A stretch of DNA of 64,000 bases from assembly GCA_902776435.1 (NCBI GenBank), contig CACYQB010000012.1, positions 1-64,000 of the forward strand. Reading direction: 5' to 3'. Source of the stretch: an uncultured Bacteroidales bacterium. GTDB lineage: Bacteria > Bacteroidota > Bacteroidia > Bacteroidales > Muribaculaceae. Shown in pieces: positions 8,207 through 53,920 of this stretch. The notes below the pieces were generated by a model. It did not search any database and was not told where the DNA came from. It was given only the letters and a program-made list of their open reading frames with translations. Position numbers and translations under genes: made by a program. Every line of letters starts with the position of its first letter. The stretch's first letter is position 1.

Positions 8207-8236
8207 GCTATGAATGTCATTCCCATTGTACATTTG
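8205..8236 (+). promoter_or_regulatory. Promoter of methyltransferase-ZIP operon
   Basis: ATTG-like -33 region at 8204-8207, about 21 bp, TACATTTG at 8229-8236. Its position implies translation starts at 8261, not at the upstream ATG 8210 which lies before the -7 box. Confidence 0.55.
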
Positions 8237-8260
8237 CAGCCAACTAAAAAGCTAAATGAT

Positions 8261-8890
8261 ATGGGAATATTAAAAACGTTCTTTACTAATTGTGCACATC
8301 CTAGAGGGATAATGGGGAGAATGATGCTCCGGTTCATGAACTTCGGTCACGCGCCGCTGACAAACTGGGGACTTGACCTTGTGGAGTTCCAGCCAGGCTG
8401 GACAATGCTTGACATTGGCTGCGGTGGCGGGGCGACATTGAAGAGACTGCTCAAGCGCAGCGACAGTGCACAGGTCTATGGCATAGACATCTCGGAGGAA
8501 AGCGTGGCAAAGGCACGCAAAGTGAATGCCGCAGTGCTCGACAAGCAGGTGTTCGTCTGCCAAGGATCTGCCGAGAAACTACCCTACGAGGACGGGAAGT
8601 TCGACCTCGTGACAGCCGTCGAGACGGTATATTTCTGGCCCAATCTGCCTGGATGCCTGCAGGAAGTACGACGCGTGCTGAAGCCGGGAGGCCGTTTCGC
8701 CATTATGGTGGAGGTGATTGAAGGTGATTCGATGTGGACTGACGTGGTGGAGGGCATGACGGCCTACTCGCCAGACCAACTGAAGAAGTTGCTTGACGAG
8801 GCAGGCTTCATTGATACTGCCATCCACCGCAAGAAACCCTCGTATGCCGCCATCACTGGAGTGAAACAGGCATCGAAGGAGCGGTCATGA
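8261..8890 (+). CDS. Class I SAM-dependent methyltransferase
   Basis: 209 residues from ATG 8261 (MGILKTFFTNCAHP), chosen because the promoter box lies between it and the earlier ATG. Motif I is LDIGCGGGATLKRLL, motif II region VYGIDISEESVAKAR, then FDLVTAVETVYFWPNL and VLKPGGRFAI: a standard Methyltransf_11 fold. The N-terminus has two Cys/His-containing segments. The stop overlaps the start of the ZIP transporter (8887), so the two are translationally coupled. Substrate unknown; arsenite, tellurite-type or small-molecule methylation would fit the metal transporter neighbour but is inference only. Confidence 0.85.
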   Translation: MGILKTFFTNCAHPRGIMGRMMLRFMNFGHAPLTNWGLDLVEFQPGWTMLDIGCGGGATLKRLLKRSDSAQVYGIDISEESVAKARKVNAAVLDKQVFVCQGSAEKLPYEDGKFDLVTAVETVYFWPNLPGCLQEVRRVLKPGGRFAIMVEVIEGDSMWTDVVEGMTAYSPDQLKKLLDEAGFIDTAIHRKKPSYAAITGVKQASKERS

Positions 8891-40943: not shown

Positions 40944-41903
40944 TCACATTCTCACGGTGCTGATATCGACGAGTCCGTTGACGATGGCATAGATGGTCAA
41001 TCCGGCAGGGCTGTGAATCTGCAGTTTGCGGGCAATGTTGCGACGGTGTGTGATGACTGTATTGACCGAGATGGCCAAGTGGTCGGCTATTTCCTTATTG
41101 GCCATTCCCTGAACGAGGGCAATGATAATGTCTTTCTCACGGTCTGAAAGGGTTTCGGCCCGCTGATTCTTTCCTTTTGCCACCATTTTGTTGATGTTCC
41201 TGGTCACATCGCCATGTTTAACACGGTGTTCCAAGCGTCGAATGGCAGGGACGAAAATTTGATCCTCGACCATGGCATGCTGCCGCAGCCACACCTCGTT
41301 CTCATAGATGTCATGCAGCGTGGCTGTCAATTGGTTGTTATGTAGCCCGTCTTGTGGCAGATACTTGATGATGAGGATTTTGAGTTCATGCAGCTGTTGA
41401 TCGACAGCATCATGGTGCTTGGAGAAAGTTTCCACATTGTAGTCGCTGGCAGGTTGGCCGTCGAGCAGGGACTTGACATAAGGGAATAGAGTCTGCTGCT
41501 CATAATTCATGTGACGGCGTATTTCGCAGGCATACTCATCATAGAGCCGCATAATCAGTTGAGCCAGCGAGTTTCCTTCGATAAGCGATTCCTCCAGTTC
41601 TCGACGGATATAAGGCAACTGAAAGTCGATAAAATAGGCATGACTGGCATCAAGATATTGTAGCAACGTGGATACAGAGATCTGATTGTCGTTTTCTGTT
41701 ACTTCGATGCCGTTGATGGTATAGTTGACCACGGTCAGAAACGTATGGGTGTCCACGCCGTTGCTCTCGCAGGTCTCTCTCACCGTCTTGTCGCCAAAAC
41801 CGAGACTGATGCCGAAAGCGCCGAGCGCTTGAAGCAGGTTATAGTTATCGCCAATGAGCGATATCATCTTGTCTTCTGCTTCATATATCTTCTGCTCTTT
41901 CAT
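40944..41903 (-). CDS. Hemerythrin-like sensor fused to a LuxR-type DNA-binding domain
   Basis: 319 residues. Residues 1-75 resemble the ScdA/DUF1858-type N-terminal domain (ISLIGDNYNLLQALGAFGISLGFGDKTVRETC). Residues about 80-235 have the His/Glu-rich four-helix pattern of hemerythrin (DASHAYFIDFQLP, EIRRHMNYEQQTLFPYV, FSKHHDAVDQQL, WLRQHAMVEDQIFVPAI). The C-terminus is a LuxR HTH (TLSDREKDIIIALVQGMANKEIADHLAISVNTVITHRRNI). A di-iron centre sensing O2, NO or iron and directly controlling transcription is implied. Lies downstream of the TonB-M16 cluster and has its own promoter. Confidence 0.88.
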   Translation of the reverse strand: MKEQKIYEAEDKMISLIGDNYNLLQALGAFGISLGFGDKTVRETCESNGVDTHTFLTVVNYTINGIEVTENDNQISVSTLLQYLDASHAYFIDFQLPYIRRELEESLIEGNSLAQLIMRLYDEYACEIRRHMNYEQQTLFPYVKSLLDGQPASDYNVETFSKHHDAVDQQLHELKILIIKYLPQDGLHNNQLTATLHDIYENEVWLRQHAMVEDQIFVPAIRRLEHRVKHGDVTRNINKMVAKGKNQRAETLSDREKDIIIALVQGMANKEIADHLAISVNTVITHRRNIARKLQIHSPAGLTIYAIVNGLVDISTVRM

Positions 41904-41987: not shown

Positions 41988-42014
41988 AATGCCCCCAAAA
42001 ATGATGGGGGCATT
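41988..42014 (-). terminator. Hairpin terminator after the M16 protease gene
   Basis: AATGCCCCC, 9-base loop, GGGGGCATT, about 34 bases past the M16 stop; ends the 50750-42048 operon and separates it from the regulator. Confidence 0.7.
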
Positions 42015-42047: not shown

Positions 42048-44867
42048 TTACTCTGACAGCATGGTAACCTCGATACAGCGTTTGGCGGCCAATAGACGCT
42101 GGGCCATGCGTTGCACATCACCTGCGGTCATGTTTTCAACCATTTTGCAATAGTCACGGTCAAAGTCCACATCGTCGTCCAGTTCATGCCAGATGATATA
42201 ACTCCAGTAATCGTTGGTAATCGCCATCTGGGCATACTGCTTCGTCAAGTATTGCTTAACCTTCGCCATACTGGACTCGAGAGGTCCCTTATCCGCAATA
42301 TTCTGCAACTGCTGGTAGATAATCGGGTTAAGTTCTTCGTAACGGTCGGGATCGGCATTGTACGAAATCTTAAAGGTAGCATTGGGACGGTCATCCTTGG
42401 CCAACTCAAAGTCCACACCGACGCCGTAGGTGCCACCCTTCTCCTCACGAACCGAGTCAGTATAGGCAATGGAGAGACAACGCTTCAGGAAGTCCAATTC
42501 CAGGTCACTCTGTGCGGTAAACGGCACATCGGCGGTATAGAAGATGCTGACGTTGGCCAGCGGCGTCGCCATTTTCTTGGTGAACTTGTGAACCGACTGG
42601 CCTCCGACAACCTGCGGCACATTGCTGTAATTGGTCGTCTCGTGCTTGCCTGTCGCAGGAAGAACGGCAAGGTATTGACATAGCAACCGACGCAATTCTT
42701 GCTCATCATAGTTACCGATGATAACCGTCTTGAAGTTGGAGGCATCGCTGAAGCGTTCCTGATAAATGTCCAGGATGCGGTCATAGCTCACGTGGTCAAG
42801 CGTAGATTGCACGACAGGCGCCATGCGGGGATGATGTCCGTACAGGATGGCCCTGATGGAGTCATTATAATCGACCTTGGGGGACGCATTACGGTTCGTC
42901 AAGAAAGCGCGGTTACGGCTGATGAACTCGTTAAAGGCCGTAGTGTCACGGCGAGGCGAGGTGAAGTACAGGTAGGCCAGTTCAAACATGGTTTTCATGT
43001 CCTTGATGGACGAGGAGCCGTTGATGCTTTGTCCTGTCGAGCCCACCGAGGGGCCGACGCTCACGCTCTTACCCGTGAGCATTTTGCGCAGGGTGATGGC
43101 ATCGAAGTCGCCCACGCCGGCCTCGGTCACGCAACTTGAGATAAGGCTGAAGTTGGGAATATCCTCGTCGCCATAGAGTGACGTGCCGCCATCGGCTTGC
43201 ATGCGCAGGGATACAACGTCTGCACTGTAGTCGGTCTTGCGGGCATAGACTTTCATGCCATTAGACAAGGTCAGTTCGGTGAATCCGTGTCTGTAGGGTT
43301 TCTCGCTGACGATAGTACCGGGCTGCGGCAGGTTGCTCACGAGATGATCGGCCAGTTGAGCCTCGGTGTACGGGGCGTAGGGCAGTTGCTGGGCGGCAAG
43401 GATGACCTGCTCGATCTGTCTCTCATCGGGAAGAACGACATCCTCCTTGTCGGGGGCATACATGACAACAACCTGATTTTTGTCAGTAATCAGTTCCTTT
43501 ACTTCAGCATTGACTTCGTCAAGAGTCACCTCGTCAGTCAATCGACGGGTGTTGTTCATCTCAAATTCCAGCGAAATGAGCGGTTCGCACGACAGGAAGT
43601 TGCTCACGCATTCGTTGACGTAGTGGGAATTACGGAAGTCGTCACGCATCTTGTAACGGCGCTCGGCAGCATTGAGGTAGAGGCTCTTGGCACGGTCAAG
43701 TTCACTCTGGGTAAAACCGTGTTGACGTGCCTGCTCGGCAACGCCGACAGCAGCGATGAGACCTCCCAGGATGTTATCCTGCTTGCAGCTGATGCTCATC
43801 GAGAACGCCTCCTTGGTGCGGCTGATGAAGAAGGTGGAGGCACGTCCCGTGGCGCTCTGGATGGGCGAACCAGGCTGCTGGCGCAACTCGGCGTAGCGGT
43901 CATTCAGCATGGTGCTGATGAGGTTGTCGATGTAGTCGCCACGCAGGTAAGCGAGACTGTTCTTCTCGTTGTCAGGTGTCGCGTCACGTTTCTGGTAGAT
44001 ATGGCAGAGCACGATGGGCTGCTCAGCGTCCTTCTCAATAGCGACAATCATCTTTTCATTGTCGTTTACGGGGTAGTAGATACGCTCAGCAGGCTTCTTT
44101 GGCATGGGAATGGACGAGAAAGTCTTCTTGATTTTCTTTTCCATCTTGTCCACATCAAAGTCACCCACGACTACGATAGCCTGCAGGTCGGGACGATACC
44201 ACTTCTGGTAATAGTCGCGCAAGTCCTGGTAAGGGAAATTGTCCACAATGTCCATCGAGCCGATGGGCATACAATCCTCATATTTCGTGCCCGCATAGAT
44301 TTTGGGCATGACTTGTTCCTGCATGCGCTGCACGGCCATGCCGGCACGACGGGTGCGCCACTCCTCATGGATGACGCCACGCTCTTTGTCGATTTCCCCG
44401 TCCTCGAGCAACAGGTAGTGGCTCCAGTCATGGAGTACCAGCAGACATGAATCGATGATACCCTCACGCACGAGCGGAGCCGAGCCGATGTGATAGACCG
44501 TCTGGTCTATTGAAGTATAGGCATTGAGGTTGGCACCGAACTTGACACCGATGCTCTCACACCAGGGGACAATGCCGAGTTTCCCGTTCTTGCCTGGAAA
44601 ATTCTTGGTGCCGTTAAAGGCCATGTGCTCCAGAAAATGAGCCAGGCCACGCTGACGGGGTTCCTCAAGGATTGACCCTACCCGCTGAGCGATGTAGAAG
44701 TCGGCAAGGCCGGCTTCCTTGGCATTATGGCGGATGTAGTAGGTCATGCCGTTCTTGAGTTTACCCGTGCGTACATCGGGGTCCTGAGGCAACTGGGCTG
44801 CCGCCCACAAGGGCAGCAGCACCAGTGCTATCAGGGATAAAATAGTGTGACGTTTCATCGTTCTCAT
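42048..44867 (-). CDS. Exported M16-family (pitrilysin/insulinase) zinc protease
   Basis: 939 residues; signal peptide near residues 4-25 (ending WAAAQ). The inverted zinc motif is HFLEH (His77, Glu80, His81), with the third ligand in EIDKERGVIHEEWR about 75 residues on. Two M16 repeats follow in tandem, the second without HxxEH, as in PqqL/FusC-type single-chain proteases. It would degrade small folded or unfolded proteins in the periplasm. Start ATG overlaps the TAA of the DUF4876 gene (TAATG), so it is translationally coupled; an alternative ATG lies three codons in. Confidence 0.92.
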   Translation of the reverse strand: MRTMKRHTILSLIALVLLPLWAAAQLPQDPDVRTGKLKNGMTYYIRHNAKEAGLADFYIAQRVGSILEEPRQRGLAHFLEHMAFNGTKNFPGKNGKLGIVPWCESIGVKFGANLNAYTSIDQTVYHIGSAPLVREGIIDSCLLVLHDWSHYLLLEDGEIDKERGVIHEEWRTRRAGMAVQRMQEQVMPKIYAGTKYEDCMPIGSMDIVDNFPYQDLRDYYQKWYRPDLQAIVVVGDFDVDKMEKKIKKTFSSIPMPKKPAERIYYPVNDNEKMIVAIEKDAEQPIVLCHIYQKRDATPDNEKNSLAYLRGDYIDNLISTMLNDRYAELRQQPGSPIQSATGRASTFFISRTKEAFSMSISCKQDNILGGLIAAVGVAEQARQHGFTQSELDRAKSLYLNAAERRYKMRDDFRNSHYVNECVSNFLSCEPLISLEFEMNNTRRLTDEVTLDEVNAEVKELITDKNQVVVMYAPDKEDVVLPDERQIEQVILAAQQLPYAPYTEAQLADHLVSNLPQPGTIVSEKPYRHGFTELTLSNGMKVYARKTDYSADVVSLRMQADGGTSLYGDEDIPNFSLISSCVTEAGVGDFDAITLRKMLTGKSVSVGPSVGSTGQSINGSSSIKDMKTMFELAYLYFTSPRRDTTAFNEFISRNRAFLTNRNASPKVDYNDSIRAILYGHHPRMAPVVQSTLDHVSYDRILDIYQERFSDASNFKTVIIGNYDEQELRRLLCQYLAVLPATGKHETTNYSNVPQVVGGQSVHKFTKKMATPLANVSIFYTADVPFTAQSDLELDFLKRCLSIAYTDSVREEKGGTYGVGVDFELAKDDRPNATFKISYNADPDRYEELNPIIYQQLQNIADKGPLESSMAKVKQYLTKQYAQMAITNDYWSYIIWHELDDDVDFDRDYCKMVENMTAGDVQRMAQRLLAAKRCIEVTMLSE

Positions 44868-46102
44868 TAGTTGAGCAGTGAAGCGGGTGCTTCAGGAATG
44901 AAATCATTGGTAGAATTGTTCGTGTCGATGTACTTGCCGTTGGCATCCTGCTTGCGGATAACGGACTTGTTGAAGCGGGTATCGTCACGGTCCACCTTGC
45001 CGCAGTAGGTCCAGCCAGCGTCAATCGAGGCATCAAGCACGTTCCACTCACGCACCGACTCAACGCTCAGGTTTACACCATCGAGAATCCAACCGTTGGG
45101 CACTTTATAGATACCGCTCTTGGTCATCTCCTTGGAGAAGTCGCCGAATACAAACATGTAGGTAGCGTCATAGACGTAATTCTCAAGCCAATCTTCCTTG
45201 CTGGTCTTCATCTTGGCAATCGCCATCGAGTTGAAGCCGCGGCTGTGGAACTGATAAATCGTAGCGGTATAGCAATACCACTTGTCAAGGTTGTCTGCCT
45301 CGCCGTCAGTGTCGGTGAAATTGGGGTTGGAGGTCTCGTCATAGAATTCAAAGTCTGCGTCTGTCAGATCAATGGAGTTAGGCTGTTCGATCGTGTGATT
45401 GATGGCGTTGACAGCCAGTGTGAGGCTCTCACCGGGCTCAACAGGGACACTCTTGCCATCACCGGGAATCATGTAGCATGCCTGCACCGAGAAGTGTGTT
45501 GACATGATGTCAGGGGTGTAGTCCTCCTTGGTAGTGGTCAGGAAAGCCGATTCGAGCACAGCGATACTGTCAGCATACAAGGTGACATCTGAATTGTTGG
45601 TGATGATGATGTACTGGTCACCGCTATAGGATTTTCCTTCGGCTGTCGAGGTACCCGTAAAGAAGATTTCGCTGATAACGAAACCGCCCTGGGCAGTAAA
45701 TGTTGAGACAACCATTTTCAGGTCATGCGACGTCTCCGAGAGGGTCACATTCTCAGAAGATACCTCAAAGTCCTTTTGTCCGGCAACACCATTCAGGGTG
45801 AAGTCAAGATGACCGTTCACAGTGACATTATAGGTACCGGCCTGAATGTCATTGCACATGATTTTGTAGCCATTGCCATCTTTGACAAATTTGGAGCCTT
45901 CGACCGTGATAACCTGCTTGGTTTCCACGTTGGTCAACTTGGCGTTGGCGTTGGTCAGAACGGTATTTTCCAGGTTGGCAGGAACTTCCAGGGTAACCAT
46001 TGTCGTGGGGATAACGGGAATCGGGTCATCGCCATTGCAAGATGATAAACACACGGTCAATGAGAGCATCATGATGACGCCTTTCAAGATTAACTTTTTC
46101 AT
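44867..46102 (-). CDS. DUF4876 lipoprotein
   Basis: 411 residues; lipoprotein signal ending CLSSC. N-terminal beta domain (about 30-135: ANAKLTNVETKQVITVEG... AGTYNVTVNGHLDF), then GGFVISEIFFTGTSTAEGKSYSGDQYIIITNNSDVTLYADSIAVLES, the DUF4876 core. Expected on the outer membrane surface, as the binding lipoprotein of the neighbouring TonB receptor. Same operon as DUF6850 barrel and M16 protease. Confidence 0.88.
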   Translation of the reverse strand: MKKLILKGVIMMLSLTVCLSSCNGDDPIPVIPTTMVTLEVPANLENTVLTNANAKLTNVETKQVITVEGSKFVKDGNGYKIMCNDIQAGTYNVTVNGHLDFTLNGVAGQKDFEVSSENVTLSETSHDLKMVVSTFTAQGGFVISEIFFTGTSTAEGKSYSGDQYIIITNNSDVTLYADSIAVLESAFLTTTKEDYTPDIMSTHFSVQACYMIPGDGKSVPVEPGESLTLAVNAINHTIEQPNSIDLTDADFEFYDETSNPNFTDTDGEADNLDKWYCYTATIYQFHSRGFNSMAIAKMKTSKEDWLENYVYDATYMFVFGDFSKEMTKSGIYKVPNGWILDGVNLSVESVREWNVLDASIDAGWTYCGKVDRDDTRFNKSVIRKQDANGKYIDTNNSTNDFIPEAPASLLN

Positions 46103-46145
46103 TTTCTTTGTTTGAGTTTAATTGGTTGATTATTAATTATTTGTT

Positions 46146-47639
46146 TTAAAATGTAATTCCTATTGAACTATGCAGCACCGCTTGATGTTCACTGGCAGAA
46201 CACAAGGTCATTCCGCCGCCCAACTCGGCAAAGAGTCCATAACGTGACTGCTTCCAGGCGTAATCGGCCCGCACCTTAGCGCCGACATCAGTATAGTTGG
46301 CGGTTGCGAACTTGTACTTGTGCTGTATCAATCGGGTGATTGCGGCATCCATGTTGGCAAACGGCATTTGCAACTTGTCTCCTATTTTGGCCCGGTAGGA
46401 CACATCGGCATTCATCGTCAGCAGCCATTTGCCGGACGGACGGACGAAACATTGCCCCTGTAACTTGCCGTAAAGGTGGCTGGCATCCATCTGCCGATGC
46501 GGATAGACATATTTCTCACGGCCATCTCTGTATCCCGCCGTCAGGACCACATGCCATTGCCCGTTACCGTAGAGAGCTCCGGCATAGGTATCCAGCAGAT
46601 GACCTTTATACATCGTCAGGCAAGCGATGACAGGGAAATAGCGGGCATCGGATGTACCACCCACGTGTTCATTGCCTGTACGTTTTGTATAGTCAATATG
46701 TCCGAAGATAGCCAGATTGCGCTCCTTCTCTTGTTTCCATCCTATCGTCGCTCCAACGTGCTCGTTGTAAAGGTCGGTAAGGGGCATGGAGTTGAATTCA
46801 GCGAGTTTGCGGTGGTAACGGTGATAATCGAGCGTGACATCGGCATAGGGGCCGCTGCCGTTGACGGGGGAAGCATGCAAAATGACAGCAAAGCCTCCGC
46901 CATCATAATAAAGGCTCCGCTTGTCACCCGAAAAACGGCTGTATTCTGTGCCCAAGCCTGTCATTTGGTACTCGGGGATAACACCCTCCTCACGATAGAA
47001 AGCGACACTGTTGGTCTGCTTGTAGATATTGCCTTCGATAGCGGCGCCAATGCGGTAGCGCTTGAAGTCATAACCGCCACCGATTCGCAGTGTCAAGTCC
47101 GTGACTATGCCCCTCATGCGAGGGTCACGACTCCTGTACTCCTGTTCAGCCCTGACAAGCATTTCGGCTCCTAGCGACCATCGGTTGATGGCCATGGCAT
47201 ATCCTCCGGAAATCGTATATCTTTCGCGCCGTGTATCCCCGCCCAGGGTGTCGGCAAGGATATAGGGTTGCAACAGGTCATAGTCACTGGTAGAGTTCCA
47301 CTTGACGCCGTGCTGCTTACCCGTCATGTAAGAGGCTTCACCCCAGACTGTGGAACGCTGGCCCAGGTGATGATAGGTATTCACTTCGAGATAGGGCAAG
47401 GTGTATCCATCGCCTTTCTCGGGAATGAAAGCCGTGGACTGATGTTGCCAGTCAAGGCCCAATGCCAATTGTGAAAACGGCATCTGATAGCAACTGCCAT
47501 GCAATGCGGGATTACGCAACGCCTGCTGTAGCGTCAATTTTCCCAGCGACGTATGTTCAACGAGGGCAGAATCGGCATTAGAAGCCGTTGCCGCTGTAAT
47601 CGTTATGGACAGGAGTATTAAGAAGTATAGGCGTCGCAT
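46146..47639 (-). CDS. DUF6850 outer-membrane beta-barrel protein
   Basis: 497 residues from ATG 47639 (MRRLYFLILLSITITAATA). After the signal peptide the protein is a succession of amphipathic strands ending in aromatic HSSIGITF, a barrel C-terminus. LVEHTSLGKLTLQQALRNPALHGSCYQMPFSQLALGLDW is typical of the DUF6850 family encoded with DUF4876 and TonB receptors in Bacteroidales. Its start lies just before the stop of the small lipoprotein gene, hence one operon. Possible second porin or assembly partner. Confidence 0.85.
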   Translation of the reverse strand: MRRLYFLILLSITITAATASNADSALVEHTSLGKLTLQQALRNPALHGSCYQMPFSQLALGLDWQHQSTAFIPEKGDGYTLPYLEVNTYHHLGQRSTVWGEASYMTGKQHGVKWNSTSDYDLLQPYILADTLGGDTRRERYTISGGYAMAINRWSLGAEMLVRAEQEYRSRDPRMRGIVTDLTLRIGGGYDFKRYRIGAAIEGNIYKQTNSVAFYREEGVIPEYQMTGLGTEYSRFSGDKRSLYYDGGGFAVILHASPVNGSGPYADVTLDYHRYHRKLAEFNSMPLTDLYNEHVGATIGWKQEKERNLAIFGHIDYTKRTGNEHVGGTSDARYFPVIACLTMYKGHLLDTYAGALYGNGQWHVVLTAGYRDGREKYVYPHRQMDASHLYGKLQGQCFVRPSGKWLLTMNADVSYRAKIGDKLQMPFANMDAAITRLIQHKYKFATANYTDVGAKVRADYAWKQSRYGLFAELGGGMTLCSASEHQAVLHSSIGITF

Positions 47640-47640
47640 G

Positions 47641-48024
47641 TCAATCAAGGATAATCATGTTAAGTGTAATGTCGTTCTGCCCATCCCTGACGAACTCGGT
47701 ATAGTCGCTCTGACAACGGAATTGATGCATGTGCACTCTTCCGTCGGGCGATTGACAGGTGGCGACACCTTCAATGTCGATTTGGTAGGCACCGCGCAAC
47801 ACCTCGACCGTAAGGCTCGCACCATCAAAGTCGGCCGACGTCGTCACCTGGCGGGTATTCACGTTGGTCAGTTTCACTTGCGCCTGCACACGAGTGATAA
47901 CCACTTCGTCCCCTGCCGCTACTGTGATTTGGGCGGTAGTAAAAATATCGTCCTCCACGGGAGCGCAAGCACTGATGGCTATTGCCAGTACGATTGTTAT
48001 GATGGATTGGAAAAAATGTTTCAT
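47641..48024 (-). CDS. Small lipoprotein related to the DUF4876 N-terminal domain
   Basis: 127 residues; lipobox ISAC (Cys20). The mature part (AQVKLTNVNTRQVTTSADFDGASLTVEVLRGAYQIDIEGVA) lines up by eye with the N-terminal beta domain of the DUF4876 lipoprotein downstream (AKLTNVETKQVITVEG... AGTYNVTVNG), so the two may be paralogues or a split pair. Start codon overlaps the TonB receptor stop (ATGA). Confidence 0.75.
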   Translation of the reverse strand: MKHFFQSIITIVLAIAISACAPVEDDIFTTAQITVAAGDEVVITRVQAQVKLTNVNTRQVTTSADFDGASLTVEVLRGAYQIDIEGVATCQSPDGRVHMHQFRCQSDYTEFVRDGQNDITLNMIILD

Positions 48025-50750
48025 AGCTTGATGTTCATCTCGAGTCCAAAGTAAGGGGTAACATGACGACGGATGGTCGTGCCGCGGCTGTCATAGTCGG
48101 GCGTGTAGTCCCACAACTTGTTGCAGAACATGGCAATGTGGAGCCGGTCACCAAAGAGTTTTTTGGTGACTTTCATGTTCACGTTCATGGCGAATGGCAC
48201 ACGGTTTTTCTCAAACTGCGACGGGGTGTAGTCTCTCACCAGCCAACGTAGGTACATGTCATTGGCATCGCTATCCTTCCAGTCGTGGATGCTGCCGTCC
48301 GGGGCGATGTACTGGACTGGGTAGTTGCTGATTTCCTTGCGTTGCGATGTGGTGAACCACAGGCATTGGGCGGACAGGGAGAAACCCAACTTGAGACGGG
48401 GCACATCGGTGTCGAGTGTGAAGTTCGTGTTAAACGACTCTCTCACCGAACCGTCATCGTTGGCATACAGACCCACATACTGAATCTGGCGGTTGTCGAT
48501 GACCTGGCTCGGACGGTAGGAATCCACGATAGAGTTGTTATAGGCCGTGCGGAAGTAAGCGCCATTGATGGTCAAGCGGGTCAGGATAACGGGGAAACGC
48601 ATGGTCTCAAGGGTGTATTCAATACCTTCCTTGAGCGTCATGCTGCCATTGGTGTAATTACCGTATCCCGCCAGTTCGTTGATGACGGTATAAGGCAACA
48701 CATTGATGTCTGGTTGCCCTGTAAGGCTTGCGGCATCGATCGCGCTTGCATCATACTGCTTATATTGATAAGTCTGGTATCGGGATTGCATCCTGAATCC
48801 TGATGTCATCTTCTCGCGGAAAGCCGTTACCGCCAACCTGTTGCCTCCGACATTGATATCAAACGACACCTCTTTCTTGAGGTTGCGGGCTGGCTCAAGG
48901 GCCGTATTGCGGGGATTGGCAATATAGGTCATCAGGTTGATGCGCCGATAGTCTGGATTATCATGATAGTAGTTCAACTGGATGAAGTCGATGTACAACA
49001 TGTCAGGGAAGAGTTGCTCCATGGTGGGCATTTTGGTATGCTGGCCAATACCCGCTGCAATGCGGATAAAGGTGGGCTTGCCCCATATCGACAGGCGGGG
49101 CAAGGAGTAACCGATATTGGCACGCGGATCCCAATAGAACTTGCCGTTCATCGTATAGTCATGCCCCACGTTCAGCATAGCGGTCGCGCGCACACCTGCA
49201 GTCAGTTCCCAGGTGCCGATGGCAGTCGGCCATTTCACGCTTTCCTCGGCATAGGCCGACAGGCGATGGTTAGCGGGAATATCTTTCAGGTCGCGCTGGC
49301 GGGATGACATGCTGGTATATACGGGCTTCGTGGGGTCAAATACCTGTCCTCGACCTAGGTTCTTGTCGAGGTTCCAGTCCGTACCAATCAGCAAGTTGTT
49401 GGACACGGTGTTACTTGGTATCTGCAGGCGGGCGTTGAGTTTGATGAAGACATTCGCGGGTTTGCCATCCACCTCGTGATGCCCAATGTACTTATAGGGA
49501 AGGATATAGGCGTCGTTTTCTCCTTCTACCTTTGACAAGGGTGCTACGGTCATACGAGACAGTTGCACCAGTCGGGTGCGCTCAATCAAGTCTTTCTCAA
49601 TCGAACTGGAGACGGTCAGGTCGGCCGATTTAAGCCACGAAGGGCGCTTAGTCTTGAACTGCAAAGCGGCCATCAGCGCATAGCGGTTGTAACTTGACTT
49701 ATAGGAGTCCTCGGCGCTGTAGGTCTGGTCAACATCTTCCTTGTCATTATCCAGCGACATGGAAAAGTCAATGTTCGATGAAAAGGTCAGTTGATAATTC
49801 TCCTTTTCCCAACGTTTTTGCATTCGGGTGGAGATTGTCACACGTTTGTAATTCTCCAACCGGTTACGAGGGTCGGATTTTGCATCAAGATAATCGGCAC
49901 TCAGGTTCAGGGAGAACCGTTTTTGTTCCCACTCAAAATCTTTTGCGGCATAGAAAAGTTTCGAGCCCATGTCGGCCTTGAGGCGGAACTTCATGTCATG
50001 TCCGCCACGACGACGTTCAATCTTTACCAAGCCGCTGGTCAAGTCGCCATATTCCACCGAAGGGATACCGCGGACGATTTCCACGCGCTCGATATCATCG
50101 GTTGAGATACCGCGCATGTCCACTCCGGCATTGGTATTGTCACGACTCGTAGCCATATTATCCCATGCGCCTGCGAGATACTGCATGTTGGCGTCCGTAG
50201 AAATGGGCGCACCATCGATAACAAAACTGGTACCGAGCGACGATGTGGCATAGTTGCTGTTCCCCGTTGAGATTTCGCGGATGTGGATATTGTTGGGCGT
50301 GCCCAGGGACGGGTCAATGCTGCGCCCGCCAGGTATCAACTCAAGCAAATCTGAGAAACTGGATGGCTGCAGGTGCTCCATCGCGTGTTTCTCGATGCGT
50401 GACGATGTGGTCAATCCTCGGTTTTCTTGGGCCGTAACGACGACTTCTCCTAACTGGCTCACCTCGGCTTGCAGCAGGTAGCGGCCATCGGCAACTGGAG
50501 CAGTCACCAACGGCTTATAACCGATAGAGGAAATCTTTAGCCGGACCTCATTATTTTTAGGTATGCTGAAGGTGCCGTCAGCCTGAGTGACCGTCAGGGC
50601 TTTGCCCCGTTTGGCATCGGCAATGGTGGCGCCAATGACAGGCTCCATCGTCTCGGCATCAAGCACAACGCCGCTGATGACTCCTTGAGCATCAGCGACT
50701 TGTAGAACCAGGGCAGATAAAGCCAGTATGATATATCTGATCAGTTGCAT
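48021..50750 (-). CDS. TonB-dependent receptor with CarboxypepD_reg N-terminal domain
   Basis: 909 residues from ATG 50750 (MQLIRYIILALSALVLQVADA). Residues about 22-105 form the carboxypeptidase-regulatory-like domain (GVISGVVLDAETMEPVIGATIADA), then plug (VVVTAQENRGL... FVIDGAPISTDANMQ... VEIVRGIPSVEYGDLTSGLVKIERR) and barrel ending GLEMNIKL. No adjacent SusD; instead DUF4876, DUF6850 and an M16 protease follow in the same operon. Cargo is probably a protein or an iron source rather than a glycan. Confidence 0.93.
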   Translation of the reverse strand: MQLIRYIILALSALVLQVADAQGVISGVVLDAETMEPVIGATIADAKRGKALTVTQADGTFSIPKNNEVRLKISSIGYKPLVTAPVADGRYLLQAEVSQLGEVVVTAQENRGLTTSSRIEKHAMEHLQPSSFSDLLELIPGGRSIDPSLGTPNNIHIREISTGNSNYATSSLGTSFVIDGAPISTDANMQYLAGAWDNMATSRDNTNAGVDMRGISTDDIERVEIVRGIPSVEYGDLTSGLVKIERRRGGHDMKFRLKADMGSKLFYAAKDFEWEQKRFSLNLSADYLDAKSDPRNRLENYKRVTISTRMQKRWEKENYQLTFSSNIDFSMSLDNDKEDVDQTYSAEDSYKSSYNRYALMAALQFKTKRPSWLKSADLTVSSSIEKDLIERTRLVQLSRMTVAPLSKVEGENDAYILPYKYIGHHEVDGKPANVFIKLNARLQIPSNTVSNNLLIGTDWNLDKNLGRGQVFDPTKPVYTSMSSRQRDLKDIPANHRLSAYAEESVKWPTAIGTWELTAGVRATAMLNVGHDYTMNGKFYWDPRANIGYSLPRLSIWGKPTFIRIAAGIGQHTKMPTMEQLFPDMLYIDFIQLNYYHDNPDYRRINLMTYIANPRNTALEPARNLKKEVSFDINVGGNRLAVTAFREKMTSGFRMQSRYQTYQYKQYDASAIDAASLTGQPDINVLPYTVINELAGYGNYTNGSMTLKEGIEYTLETMRFPVILTRLTINGAYFRTAYNNSIVDSYRPSQVIDNRQIQYVGLYANDDGSVRESFNTNFTLDTDVPRLKLGFSLSAQCLWFTTSQRKEISNYPVQYIAPDGSIHDWKDSDANDMYLRWLVRDYTPSQFEKNRVPFAMNVNMKVTKKLFGDRLHIAMFCNKLWDYTPDYDSRGTTIRRHVTPYFGLEMNIKL

Positions 50751-50762
50751 CTCATTGATTTT

Positions 50763-50800
50763 GGAGTATAAAATTACTCCCAATCAAAGAGACGCACAAT
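50763..50800 (-). promoter_or_regulatory. Promoter and small palindrome of the TonB-M16 operon
   Basis: Minus strand ATTG (50797-50800), 20 bp, TAATTTTA (50769-50776); the -7 region lies within the palindrome GGAGTA-N6-TACTCC (50763-50780), a candidate operator. Confidence 0.5.
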
Positions 50801-50814
50801 ACCTAAAAATGAGG

Positions 50815-51810
50815 TCAGAGAGCCAATCTCAGGCCAATACCGTAATTACTGTTGGCAGGCGACAAGCCATTGCGGAACGACACCCTGCAGAACCATGCAT
50901 CAAAGTACCAGTTGCCCCCACGATATACCCGTGTCGTTCCCGTTGAGGGCCCGGTGGGATCAGTCTGTTCACCGCTTACATAATCCCCGTACCAATCTTG
51001 ACACCACTCATGAACATTGCCGCTCATATCATACAGTTGCAATTCGTTGGGTTCACGGGTGGCCACAGCATGGGTTCCATAATATCCTGAGCCACGCGAC
51101 TCCCATGAGTCGTTAAAGGAATACCACGCGACCTCAGAGAGGGTATTGCCGCCAGCGTATTTATAACCCTGGCTATCATTGCCACCACGTGCAGCAAATT
51201 CCCACTCCGCTTCAGTCGGCAACCTGAAATTCTGATTTGTCAAGTCATTCAGCATAGCGATAAATGCTTGGCAATCGTCCCAAGATACCCGTTCTACAGG
51301 AAGCTCACCCCCGTGGAAATAGCTGGGATTGCTGCCCATGACTGCGTTCCACAATTCTTGAGTGACCTCGGTCTGCCCAATGAGATAGGAGGTCAATGTC
51401 ACCTGGTGAACAGGCTTTTCCCGGCTGCTGGCATCACTACCCTGCTCGGCTGTTGCGCCCATCGAGAACGTTCCGCCCTCAACAGGCACCATAACAAAGT
51501 TGACACCGTTCACGGTGAATGTCTGCACGGGGTCCGCGGGCCATTCTCCGCCCAGGAGGTAGTCTATCAACGATGTGACATCACTGATCGTCACATGGCC
51601 GTCACGGTTGACATCGGCACATGCCATACTCACAGATAACTCATCTCCACTCAATAGATAATCTATCAGCGCAGTGACGTCACTGATGGCCACATGACCA
51701 TCTCCATTCACGTCACCACGAGTGTTGCCGCTCGCCCAGACCTGGAACGAGAGTGCCAGCACCATCAATAGAGTAACCGCCCGACAATATTTTATTACGA
51801 CACTTTTCAT
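50815..51810 (-). CDS. Secreted SUMF1-like protein with N-terminal dockerin-like repeats
   Basis: 331 residues; signal peptide ending VWASG. Two dockerin-like units come first (GDVNGDGHVAISDVTALIDY and CADVNRDGHVTISDVTSLIDY), then a formylglycine-generating-enzyme fold (about 98-331): FVMVPVEGGTFSMGAT, FRLPTEAEWEFAARGG, MSGNVHEWCQDWYG, YRGGNWYFDAWFCRVSFRNG. The Cys pair that binds copper in true FGE is reduced to one Cys, so sulfatase maturation is unlikely. An AGGAG immediately precedes the ATG, which lies inside the upstream gene. Confidence 0.85.
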   Translation of the reverse strand: MKSVVIKYCRAVTLLMVLALSFQVWASGNTRGDVNGDGHVAISDVTALIDYLLSGDELSVSMACADVNRDGHVTISDVTSLIDYLLGGEWPADPVQTFTVNGVNFVMVPVEGGTFSMGATAEQGSDASSREKPVHQVTLTSYLIGQTEVTQELWNAVMGSNPSYFHGGELPVERVSWDDCQAFIAMLNDLTNQNFRLPTEAEWEFAARGGNDSQGYKYAGGNTLSEVAWYSFNDSWESRGSGYYGTHAVATREPNELQLYDMSGNVHEWCQDWYGDYVSGEQTDPTGPSTGTTRVYRGGNWYFDAWFCRVSFRNGLSPANSNYGIGLRLAL

Positions 51811-53920
51811 CTCCTTGGCGAGTTAGAACGTAAAATTTTCGGGCGCTACGGGTGTTGTCATTACCAGTAGTCACCTCAATATTCACGCCGTCAAAGGGGG
51901 TTCCGCTCTCATGACCATTCAGATTATAATAGCGCACCCTTCTTTTTCCGTTAGCGTCTGCAGCAGGTGCTGGCTCGACATTTACCTCATCGACAGACGT
52001 GAGAACATCGATACCCGCGTCATCGATGGGCTCCAGATAGAACGATTGCAGGGGTTCATAGCCCTTCTCCTCCATCAGTGCGCCCCATGCTGCGGGCAAT
52101 TCAACGGCAGCAGTGGACATAGCGCCTCCGGGCATGGTCTGAATCTTATTGCGGGAAGGATCACCTGTAACCAGGAAAGCAGTTTCGCCCTTGACCATCG
52201 TGGGGATTGTCATCATCTGAGCCGCGTCAGTGGCATACCACTCGGGCGTCGGCGTCATTTCGGCATTCTCCTCGTCGGTCAACTCCTCCATATATTCCTC
52301 CAGTGAGGTATGGTCTGGATTAATGGCACTGCCTGGGTTGGCATAGTAGTGGGCATAGGTGCGTTCATACAGCGGACGACGAGCGTTTGCAATCAACTGG
52401 TCTTCGAGATTGTCAACAGTGCCATACTTATCCTTGAGAATGGCAGCGACCTCCTCGGTCATGAGGATGGTACGGTGGGTGAATTGCACACCGCTGCCCA
52501 GAGCCAACTGGCAACGCTCGGTAATGTCCCATGCCAGCAACTGCATGATTTTTTCCCCATCGGTTGTTGCTGGTGGCATATTATTACCCCACAGCAGCGT
52601 AGAAGCCACCGTCACGGCGCTCTCGTTGAGGCCGATACCCTGGCGCACATGATAGGGGTTCCATCCCACGCGCAGGCAGGCTTCGTCGTCTTCGGCAAGG
52701 CACCACGACACGGGATAGCCGAAGGTTCCCATGCGGTCCTGCTTCACATAATAGCCTGCCAGATTGAGCATGGCAAGATTCATGAATCTTCCGATGGCGA
52801 CATTGGCCTGTTCATTGATCTGACCTTGCCCATGATCCAGACCCAACTGCCGTGCCACCGGGCCATTGACCCAGCAATAGGGAACCCAGGCGTGTGTACT
52901 TCCCAGCGTACGGCGGAACTCACCTGAGGTCATCGCCTTGGTCAAGGCAATCAGCAAGGGCATGTACTCAGGCTTGCAACCGGCCATGACGCCATTGACG
53001 GCGACATGCCACACCAGGCTCTGGCGATAGGACGGCGACAGGACAGCAATCGTTCGGTCCCAGCGGTAGTCGGTGTATTTCATGAACTCCTCTACTCGTT
53101 CCATGGTGGGTGGTATGATGGGCAGGCCGTCACTCCACATCATATCGTTATAGAATTCATTGACCTCATCAATCGTTCCGCTGAAGACAGGGGCCTGAGG
53201 ATCGGCAGCCTCAGGATGGGAATTCTCATCAATCTCCTCCTGGGTAATCGGGTCGCATAGCATATCGAGAATCTGAGGCCACAGCACTTCGCGGGTGTTT
53301 TGCTTGAGTTCCTCCACAGTATGTGACGCGAAAGCACCCGGATAGACAGCGACGCGCAGCACCGGGACACCGTTGTTATAGGCGGTAGTCTTGGCCTGCG
53401 TGTCAAAACCTGGGGCGGCAATCATCACCGACGGGATTCCGATATATTCGGCGGCAATGCAGTTGCCTGTCTCCTTGGGCGTACAGATACCACAGCCGCC
53501 GTTTCCCGAGATGACAGCATCCACACCATATTCCTGCAACCGCTCTTGGAAACGCTCGACCTGAGGCTTGCGTACACGAGGGCCAGGGAACAAGCCTGCT
53601 GAACCGATTTCGCTTAACACATAGACTGTTGCCGTGGGGAAATACTCCTGAATAAGCCTCTTGAGTTCATAGTGGGTGACACTAGCCATGAACGATCCGC
53701 CCACGAGGGCGATGGTCTTGCCTTCCAGGGTTTCCAATCGAGGCGCGAGTTCTATCATTTCTACTGACGACTGCCCCACGGGGGACAACACGTCATAAGT
53801 TCCCACCGTCTCATCTCCCCCGCAGTCGCCACTGGGGTCACACGTCTGCCCCTGCGCAATAAAAGCCTGTGAGACAAGGCTCAATACCAATAACAATCGT
53901 TTGAATATCCTGTGATTCAT
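51713..53920 (-). CDS. Exported UGSC-family protein fused to a large uncharacterised domain
   Basis: 735 residues; signal peptide ending IAQGQ. Residues about 40-215 match the UGSC (seleno)protein family: YDVLSPVGQSSVEMIELAPRLETLEGKTIALV and VISGNGGCGICTPKETGNCIAAEYIGIPSVMI, with CGIC in place of UGSC. The next about 400 residues (SDGLPIIPPTMERVEEFM..., GCKPEYMPLLIALTKAM, GNNMPPATTDGEKIMQLL) are a conserved-looking domain I cannot name. The tail YYNLNGHESGTPFDGVNIEVTT is of the kind found on secreted Bacteroidales proteins, after which the frame runs on for about 25 residues and overlaps the next gene by 98 bases. Confidence 0.7.
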   Translation of the reverse strand: MNHRIFKRLLLVLSLVSQAFIAQGQTCDPSGDCGGDETVGTYDVLSPVGQSSVEMIELAPRLETLEGKTIALVGGSFMASVTHYELKRLIQEYFPTATVYVLSEIGSAGLFPGPRVRKPQVERFQERLQEYGVDAVISGNGGCGICTPKETGNCIAAEYIGIPSVMIAAPGFDTQAKTTAYNNGVPVLRVAVYPGAFASHTVEELKQNTREVLWPQILDMLCDPITQEEIDENSHPEAADPQAPVFSGTIDEVNEFYNDMMWSDGLPIIPPTMERVEEFMKYTDYRWDRTIAVLSPSYRQSLVWHVAVNGVMAGCKPEYMPLLIALTKAMTSGEFRRTLGSTHAWVPYCWVNGPVARQLGLDHGQGQINEQANVAIGRFMNLAMLNLAGYYVKQDRMGTFGYPVSWCLAEDDEACLRVGWNPYHVRQGIGLNESAVTVASTLLWGNNMPPATTDGEKIMQLLAWDITERCQLALGSGVQFTHRTILMTEEVAAILKDKYGTVDNLEDQLIANARRPLYERTYAHYYANPGSAINPDHTSLEEYMEELTDEENAEMTPTPEWYATDAAQMMTIPTMVKGETAFLVTGDPSRNKIQTMPGGAMSTAAVELPAAWGALMEEKGYEPLQSFYLEPIDDAGIDVLTSVDEVNVEPAPAADANGKRRVRYYNLNGHESGTPFDGVNIEVTTGNDNTRSARKFYVLTRQGDEKCRNKILSGGYSIDGAGTLVPGLGERQHSW

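Follow-up and report, generated by a model that had tools for sequence, protein, structure and literature searches.

What does an exported peptidase do in an operon built around a TonB-dependent receptor? The question is raised by a stretch of 64,000 nucleotides from an uncultured Bacteroidales bacterium of the Muribaculaceae (contig CACYQB010000012.1, positions 1 to 64,000; hereafter the window), in which five genes on the minus strand (42048-50750) encode, according to open reading frames (ORFs) and Pfam domains, the receptor, a small lipoprotein, a DUF6850 barrel, a DUF4876 lipoprotein and an M16 peptidase. Our answer, in which confidence and doubt are about evenly balanced, is that the operon may be an iron-responsive uptake system whose M16 peptidase processes an imported polypeptide or peptide carrier, working by analogy like the Fus system of Pectobacterium and YddB-PqqL of E. 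coli.

The operon and its M16 peptidase

The five genes were joined by overlaps of 1-4 bases or one-base gaps, with the exception of 43 bp between DUF6850 and DUF4876, and comparable junctions were present in most window-type loci, meaning those with an M16 gene of the window's type (83-100% identical). The initial annotation, which had described five genes connected by overlaps or short gaps, was confirmed at this place and the Pfam domains agreed with it. The receptor (48021..50750) carried a PF07715 plug (43.7 bits) and a CarbopepD_reg_2 domain, and its annotated length of 909 aa held, with the start at ATG 50750 and the listed ORF opening at TTG 50783. The small lipoprotein (127 aa) occupied 47641..48024, the DUF6850 outer-membrane barrel 46146..47639 (PF21012, 319 bits; listed ORF start TTG 47648), the DUF4876 lipoprotein 44867..46102 (PF16215, 196 bits) and the M16 peptidase (939 aa) 42048..44867, the last with PF00675 and two PF05193 stretches.

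The M16 protein had both M16 domain types in two lobes and an intact HFLEH zinc site at 77-81. By eye it had a signal peptide and no lipobox, and therefore should be exported, as had been claimed earlier. Its nearest solved relatives were 9ldy (M16 family, 713 bits), PqqL (229 bits) and 6b03 (108 bits; entry title Putative zinc protease), which we take to be FusC. The PqqL and 6b03 matches spanned most of the M16 length, HFLEH aligned with HFVEH of PqqL, and the window protein was closer to PqqL than to FusC.

Linkage of M16 to the receptor

Window-type M16 genes were found in 23 of the 101 genus genomes, the window's own included, and all 23 lay on the same contig as a DUF4876 match and within 700 bp of it, while the other M16 proteins of the genus were at most 41% identical to that of the window. 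M16 also stood beside the core of receptor, DUF4876 and DUF6850 in Prevotella disiens, P. koreensis, P. ihumii, Segatella copri (on a contig with only DUF4876 and M16) and Hoylesella pleuritidis (with the DUF6850 and M16 frames split), and a distant genome (G008) gave a further linkage by coordinates alone. The receptor-M16 linkage first proposed for the window is thus recurrent, and we regard it as highly probable that M16 is coupled to the receptor.

The two genes could also be neighbours by descent alone, without the protease and the receptor working together. M16 was widespread in the order (51/80 genomes, E 1e-80) and mostly away from DUF4876 matches, and an approximately unbiased (AU) test with 30 rows (18 linked, 12 unlinked) did not reject that all linked M16 form one clade (p 0.159). 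However, in a quick-method tree of 37 linked and 34 unlinked M16 proteins the linkage label needed 3 changes against a shuffled mean of 24.0, the linked proteins forming two clades of 18 (Shimodaira-Hasegawa-like approximate likelihood ratio test 100 each) plus L076. In a 90-row receptor tree, made by a quick method as well, the partners of the window-side M16 clade occupied three places, so that one M16 clade pairs with differing receptor lineages; the partners of the other clade stood in one place, aside from L202, which was a wrong paralogue (L055, with no full receptor, was dropped). We find descent alone very unlikely, and the trees suggest more than one M16-receptor pairing event. Because of the AU result, two or three separate recruitments of M16 are not claimed firmly.

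The window's own genome had nine M16 genes (11 matches, three of them within one frame). Elsewhere in that genome (L042 on contig C4, 6937..15695) three stand-alone M16 genes were found in tandem, adjoining a C10 peptidase with Spi inhibitor, LRR and dockerin domains.

A conserved core with alternative partners

The receptor, DUF4876 and DUF6850 are a conserved core, and M16 is one among several alternative 3' partners. DUF4876 was present in 48/295 genomes of the order and in 70/101 of the genus. The genes directly 3' of the core were classified as M16, C25-like (HEAT protein), ABC (ABC-DUF4857), CCP (CCP_MauG) or X418 (no Pfam family). In the order sample (34 sites fetched, all from the higher-scoring half of the DUF4876 matches) there were 1 M16, 9 C25-like, 13 ABC and 10 other partners and one contig edge. 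The genus sample (60 of 76 non-window rows: 19/22 high-scoring, 32/32 middle and 9/22 low) comprised 40 M16, 15 X418, 4 other and one edge, an M16 share that is biased upward since the nine fetched low-scoring rows had no M16. Twenty hand-chosen sites from DUF6850 matches in the family gave 6 M16, 4 C25-like, 6 ABC and 4 other. Finally, the named sample (best 80 of 501 relatives, 81 blocks called) comprised 42 M16, 9 ABC, 5 CCP, 2 X418, 1 C25-like, 18 other and 4 edges, and its M16 share is not an unbiased rate because the source alignment was led by the window protein, a few blocks were split or spurious (L267 and L287 counted twice) and several loci were contigs also fetched unnamed. Among the loci counted as other, some had M16 upstream or further away and some an ABC set encoded on the other strand.

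M16 thus stood after the core at 40/60 genus and 6/20 family sites and in 42/81 named blocks, but at 1/34 order sites. The initial annotation had set an M16 gene commonly unlinked from the other four as evidence against its proposal, and at the scale of the order this was the case. The idea that every core includes M16 was rejected, since most cores of the order sample adjoin other partners or none; the core is modular, and the unit with M16 is one of its variants.

In the loci without it, M16 was exchanged for other processing enzymes. The HEAT partner had an N-terminal region with H-x-H-G and D-A-C-x-N-G motifs in 18/18 cases, which we take to correspond to the gingipain His/Cys dyad, and by these motifs it was labelled C25-like. 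A CCP_MauG relative, of the di-haem cytochrome c peroxidase type, lay directly 3' of the core in five Flavobacterium/Pedobacter loci (L283, L285, L287, L294 and L297; Pfam on one), and an exported protein of 416-419 aa, with no Pfam family above cut-off, took the place of M16 in part of the genus (L160, L163-L170, L192 and L194). In ABC-type loci the core was followed by an ABC ATPase, a permease and DUF4857, with PepSY in L053, the one locus scanned for it.

Two other explanations have to be weighed here. M16 might be protective and destroy bacteriocins or other proteins that enter via the receptor, and antibacterial proteins often target TonB receptors (PMC6793856). Protection would, however, leave unexplained why a di-haem peroxidase or an ABC set can stand in the place of M16, and we find it scarcely credible. 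Alternatively, the operon could take up a small ferric chelate, as siderophore or haem uptake systems do, with M16 as an accessory that trims a peptide siderophore or clears misfolded receptor parts and without protein import. Such uptake is favoured by the loci in which the same core continues into the ABC set, by the same ABC/PepSY/DUF4857 make-up in the iron-induced BT3625-33, and by XusABC of B. thetaiotaomicron, an iron-regulated xenosiderophore system (PMC10434189). The repeated pairing with M16, and elsewhere with an unrelated peptidase-like partner, is nevertheless hard to explain for a small chelate, and we consider this explanation rather unlikely.

Secreted proteins of about 600 aa adjoined many cores (L300, L306, L279, L286 and others), some of them with SBBP propeller repeats, tails of DUF6383 or resembling those of the type IX secretion system, or dockerin. 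They are possibly a surface partner or a cargo binder.

The lipoproteins and the DUF6850 barrel

The small lipoprotein gave no match in the Pfam scan. A DUF4876 profile of 409 positions, built on 80 long DUF4876 proteins from loci without the small gene, aligned with it over profile positions 1-120 (E 1e-13) and matched 54/54 small proteins, that of the window included, at E 1e-3 or better. Judged by this alignment, the small gene encodes the N-terminal domain of DUF4876 as a free-standing copy. In the window an acidic stretch follows its lipobox cysteine, and at least two acidic residues were present after this cysteine in 129/193 long DUF4876 proteins and 40/53 small ones, counts in which the pattern mis-set some lipoboxes and duplicate loci were counted twice. 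Such a stretch presumably resembles the surface-export signal of Bacteroidetes.

The predicted model of the DUF4876 lipoprotein (predicted local distance difference test, pLDDT, 86.6) matched its own family, the solved relative 4q1z, which is BT_1938 (E 4e-22), and the sole other match at E <=0.001 was 3liu (9e-4, TM-score 0.14). DUF6850 was modelled as a barrel with about 18 long strands (pLDDT 90.4); its fold search recovered generic barrels only and no close solved relative (query TM-score at most 0.42 among the 50 matches listed), and a literature search found no paper on DUF6850 and three on DUF4876.

The promoter box and iron

Upstream alignment showed that a conserved promoter region belongs to the receptor itself (50763..50808, minus strand). 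It comprises a box, TTTTAGGTATTG, at 50808-50797 and a palindrome, GGAGTA-ATTTTA-TACTCC, at 50780-50763 over a -7-like element. The consensus of 22 aligned upstream regions (the window and 21 loci) was TTTTAGGTATT(G), about 18 bases and then GTAATTTT; the box was kept in all 22, two of them with one mismatch, and the palindrome over the second element in most, not all.

With up to 2 mismatches, box and promoter preceded 56/178 core receptors compared with 15/2035 other genes of the same loci. By class, with eight named window-type loci left out and other named/unnamed duplicates remaining, the box was present in 21/21 window-type genus loci, 13/29 other named M16 loci, 4/17 of genus group A, 1/12 other unnamed M16 loci, 3/40 ABC, 2/12 C25-like, 0/16 X418 and 0/5 CCP loci, and 3/17 loci with none of these partners. 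A stricter pattern gave 31 sites in seven named core-bearing genomes, against 0 for the reversed pattern. Thirty site loci were read and yielded 28 downstream ORFs, and the 20 that were scanned included 5 flavodoxins, 7 TonB receptors, 2 TetR proteins, 2 SAM/leucine carboxyl methyltransferases and 4 others. Flavodoxin followed the box in 5/7 of these genomes, and one of the receptors (L352) belonged to a DUF4876 operon itself, so that the box is common to flavodoxin and TonB-receptor genes of relatives.

Among the iron-starvation genes of P. gingivalis, P. intermedia or B. thetaiotaomicron are flavodoxin, SAM methyltransferases, TetR/ABC sets and DUF4876/TonB loci (PMC10434189). Without iron, PG1019-22 of P. 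gingivalis was up 20.8-214.5-fold, and BT3625-33 and BT1933-39 of B. thetaiotaomicron were up 36.7-128-fold and 3.5-7.4-fold, respectively (PMC10434189), while a hemin list for P. gingivalis places a DUF4876 gene high (PMC10470040). The link to iron, raised earlier for the window, is consistent with the promoter box shared in silico and with these transcriptomes of relatives, but the loci concerned have other partners. PIOMA14_I_0804-08 of P. intermedia, entered as a TonB-dependent transport system, rose 5.2-33.2-fold (PMC10434189), and would document iron control should it prove to be the M16-type operon. We think that the operon is probably under iron control.

Peptides or proteins could instead be imported for amino acids and not for iron, as by RagAB. 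The operon includes a peptidase, and Bacteroidales use peptides for living. Against this stand the flavodoxin and TetR genes of relatives that share the promoter box, the induction of relatives' loci by iron depletion, and the absence of a SusD partner among the operon genes in the Pfam scan; we consider import for amino acids improbable.

The window's own genome had a single PF00258 match, in a 400-aa frame. A second copy of the operon palindrome, with one mismatch, was seen in this genome (L331, C3:14750) just upstream of a long ORF that by eye is like DNA polymerase III alpha, and window positions 8210..8887 encode, by eye, a SAM methyltransferase-like protein that resembles a box-downstream gene of B. 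fragilis (L334).

Comparison with known uptake systems

The best PDB matches of the receptor were SusC/RagA N-termini, and none was named FusA or YddB (7 matches for the single protein at E 0.01, 10 for the profile at E 0.001), so the receptor family appears unrelated to FusA. The receptor resembles RagAB/SusCD in its N-terminal CarbopepD_reg_2 and its plug; unlike in those systems, a SusD/RagB partner was absent from the operon by Pfam, and the full SusC/RagA NCBIfam profile gave 72.4 bits, far under its cut-off of 368.25.

The operon is like Fus and YddB-PqqL in that the gene of a TonB receptor adjoins that of a presumably periplasmic M16 peptidase, and probably in its control by iron, and unlike Fus in its receptor family, in the added DUF4876 lipoproteins and DUF6850 barrel, and in FusB, since no domain of a FusB-type TonB protein was found in the operon or in five scanned neighbours. 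Fus-type systems are reported throughout Proteobacteria (PMC6793856), whereas the operon is in Bacteroidota. As the tests for a FusA-family receptor and for FusB detected neither, the operon is not a member of Fus/YddB-PqqL. From the original analogy with Fus, we retain the exported, linked and FusC/PqqL-related M16 and not a FusA-like receptor, and ferredoxin as cargo was not supported in this analysis. That the operon may work like Fus is suggested mainly by the same exchange of partners, here beside a receptor that belongs to another family: proteobacterial FusA homologues have an associated FusC in 12/24 sequence clusters, other proteases in some, and cytochrome c peroxidases in multiple cases without FusC (PMC6793856).

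Within Bacteroidota, PG1019-22, BT1933-39 and BT3625-33 share the receptor-DUF4876 core and higher expression without iron, and differ in their ABC/PepSY/DUF4857 or HEAT partners, with no M16 in the accessible listing; BT1933-39 lists a HEAT protein, as C25-like loci do (PMC10434189). XusABC (BT2063-65) is likewise a Bacteroidetes TonB-receptor locus, iron-repressed and for xenosiderophores, but it has DUF4374 and PepSY partners and no peptidase in the same listing (PMC10434189). Neither a DUF4374 lipoprotein nor a PepSY protein was present among the operon genes in the Pfam scan.

Proposed mechanism

We propose that iron starvation would induce this TonB-dependent uptake operon, and that the DUF4876 lipoprotein and its free N-terminal domain, at the surface, would cooperate with the DUF6850 barrel and the TonB receptor. 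We infer that the assembly would catch an iron-bearing polypeptide or peptide complex and take it in, and that periplasmic M16 would then enclose the carrier and cleave it, so that iron is freed. More broadly, and with less than even confidence, we tentatively suggest a modular machine for iron-protein import that evolved in Bacteroidota, convergent with Fus, in which the receptor/DUF4876/DUF6850 module would be combined with interchangeable processors and M16 would have been recruited more than once. The processors would be M16, the gingipain-like HEAT protease, the di-haem peroxidase and the ABC/PepSY set, each releasing iron from its own kind of imported protein or peptide.

Several results, in addition to the AU test, weigh against the proposed mechanism. 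We give a polypeptide cargo about an even chance, and the loci in which the same core stands with the ABC/PepSY set suit a small ferric chelate no less well. The HEAT partner scored 17 bits against Pfam C25 (cut-off 23), with 1/15 members matching at E 0.1, and a PDB profile search with it recovered HEAT-type proteins only and no gingipain. The box is rare outside M16-type loci, as the ABC-class receptors illustrate. The window's own genome had one exact box-promoter site and two sites in all, that of the operon and one more, against 1 for the reversed pattern; a regulon in this genome was therefore rejected, and the regulon claim rests on relatives. The iron-induced DUF4876 loci in the accessible literature carry other partners and none is a verified M16-type locus. 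A literature search, which covered titles and abstract beginnings, turned up neither published expression data for a verified M16-type locus nor anything on an M16-DUF4876 operon. Finally, PqqL/YddB themselves are reported not to sustain growth in LB when iron is limiting (PMC6793856).

Neighbouring genes

A terminator-like hairpin (41988..42014, minus strand; 10 pairs, 6 GC) lies 3' of M16; it is weak evidence of a terminator, because 12 such sites were found in the region against 9.0 expected. The hairpin separates M16 from a gene for a hemerythrin-LuxR regulator (40944..41903, minus strand; PF01814 and PF00196), which is probably a separate transcript. This gene adjoined M16 in 19/22 window-type genus loci, the window not counted, and no such gene was labelled after M16 in the Prevotella loci displayed. 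The architecture of the regulator is the same as that of a CdhR-type regulator of P. intermedia, which carries a fused hemerythrin domain (PMC10434189).

The gene at 50815..51810, which lies upstream of the operon and shares its strand, encodes an FGE-sulfatase domain with dockerin repeats. This gene was set aside as an operon member because the promoter sits between it and the receptor and the upstream genes vary among relatives; the FGE profile also matched other dockerin proteins and its 103 matches were not used. It is overlapped by a gene for a 735-aa UGSC-family protein (51713..53920), also on the strand of the operon.

Implications

The nearest named relatives of the window are rumen metagenome-assembled genomes, so that plant ferredoxin might be available, although this is speculative and the operon occurs in oral Prevotella as well. 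If our reading is true, the piracy of proteins or peptides for iron would extend beyond Proteobacteria to Bacteroidota of the gut, rumen and mouth. DUF4876 and DUF6850 would gain a role, and the genetically tractable B. thetaiotaomicron would make it possible to test, through BT1933-39, which proteins supply iron in the gut.

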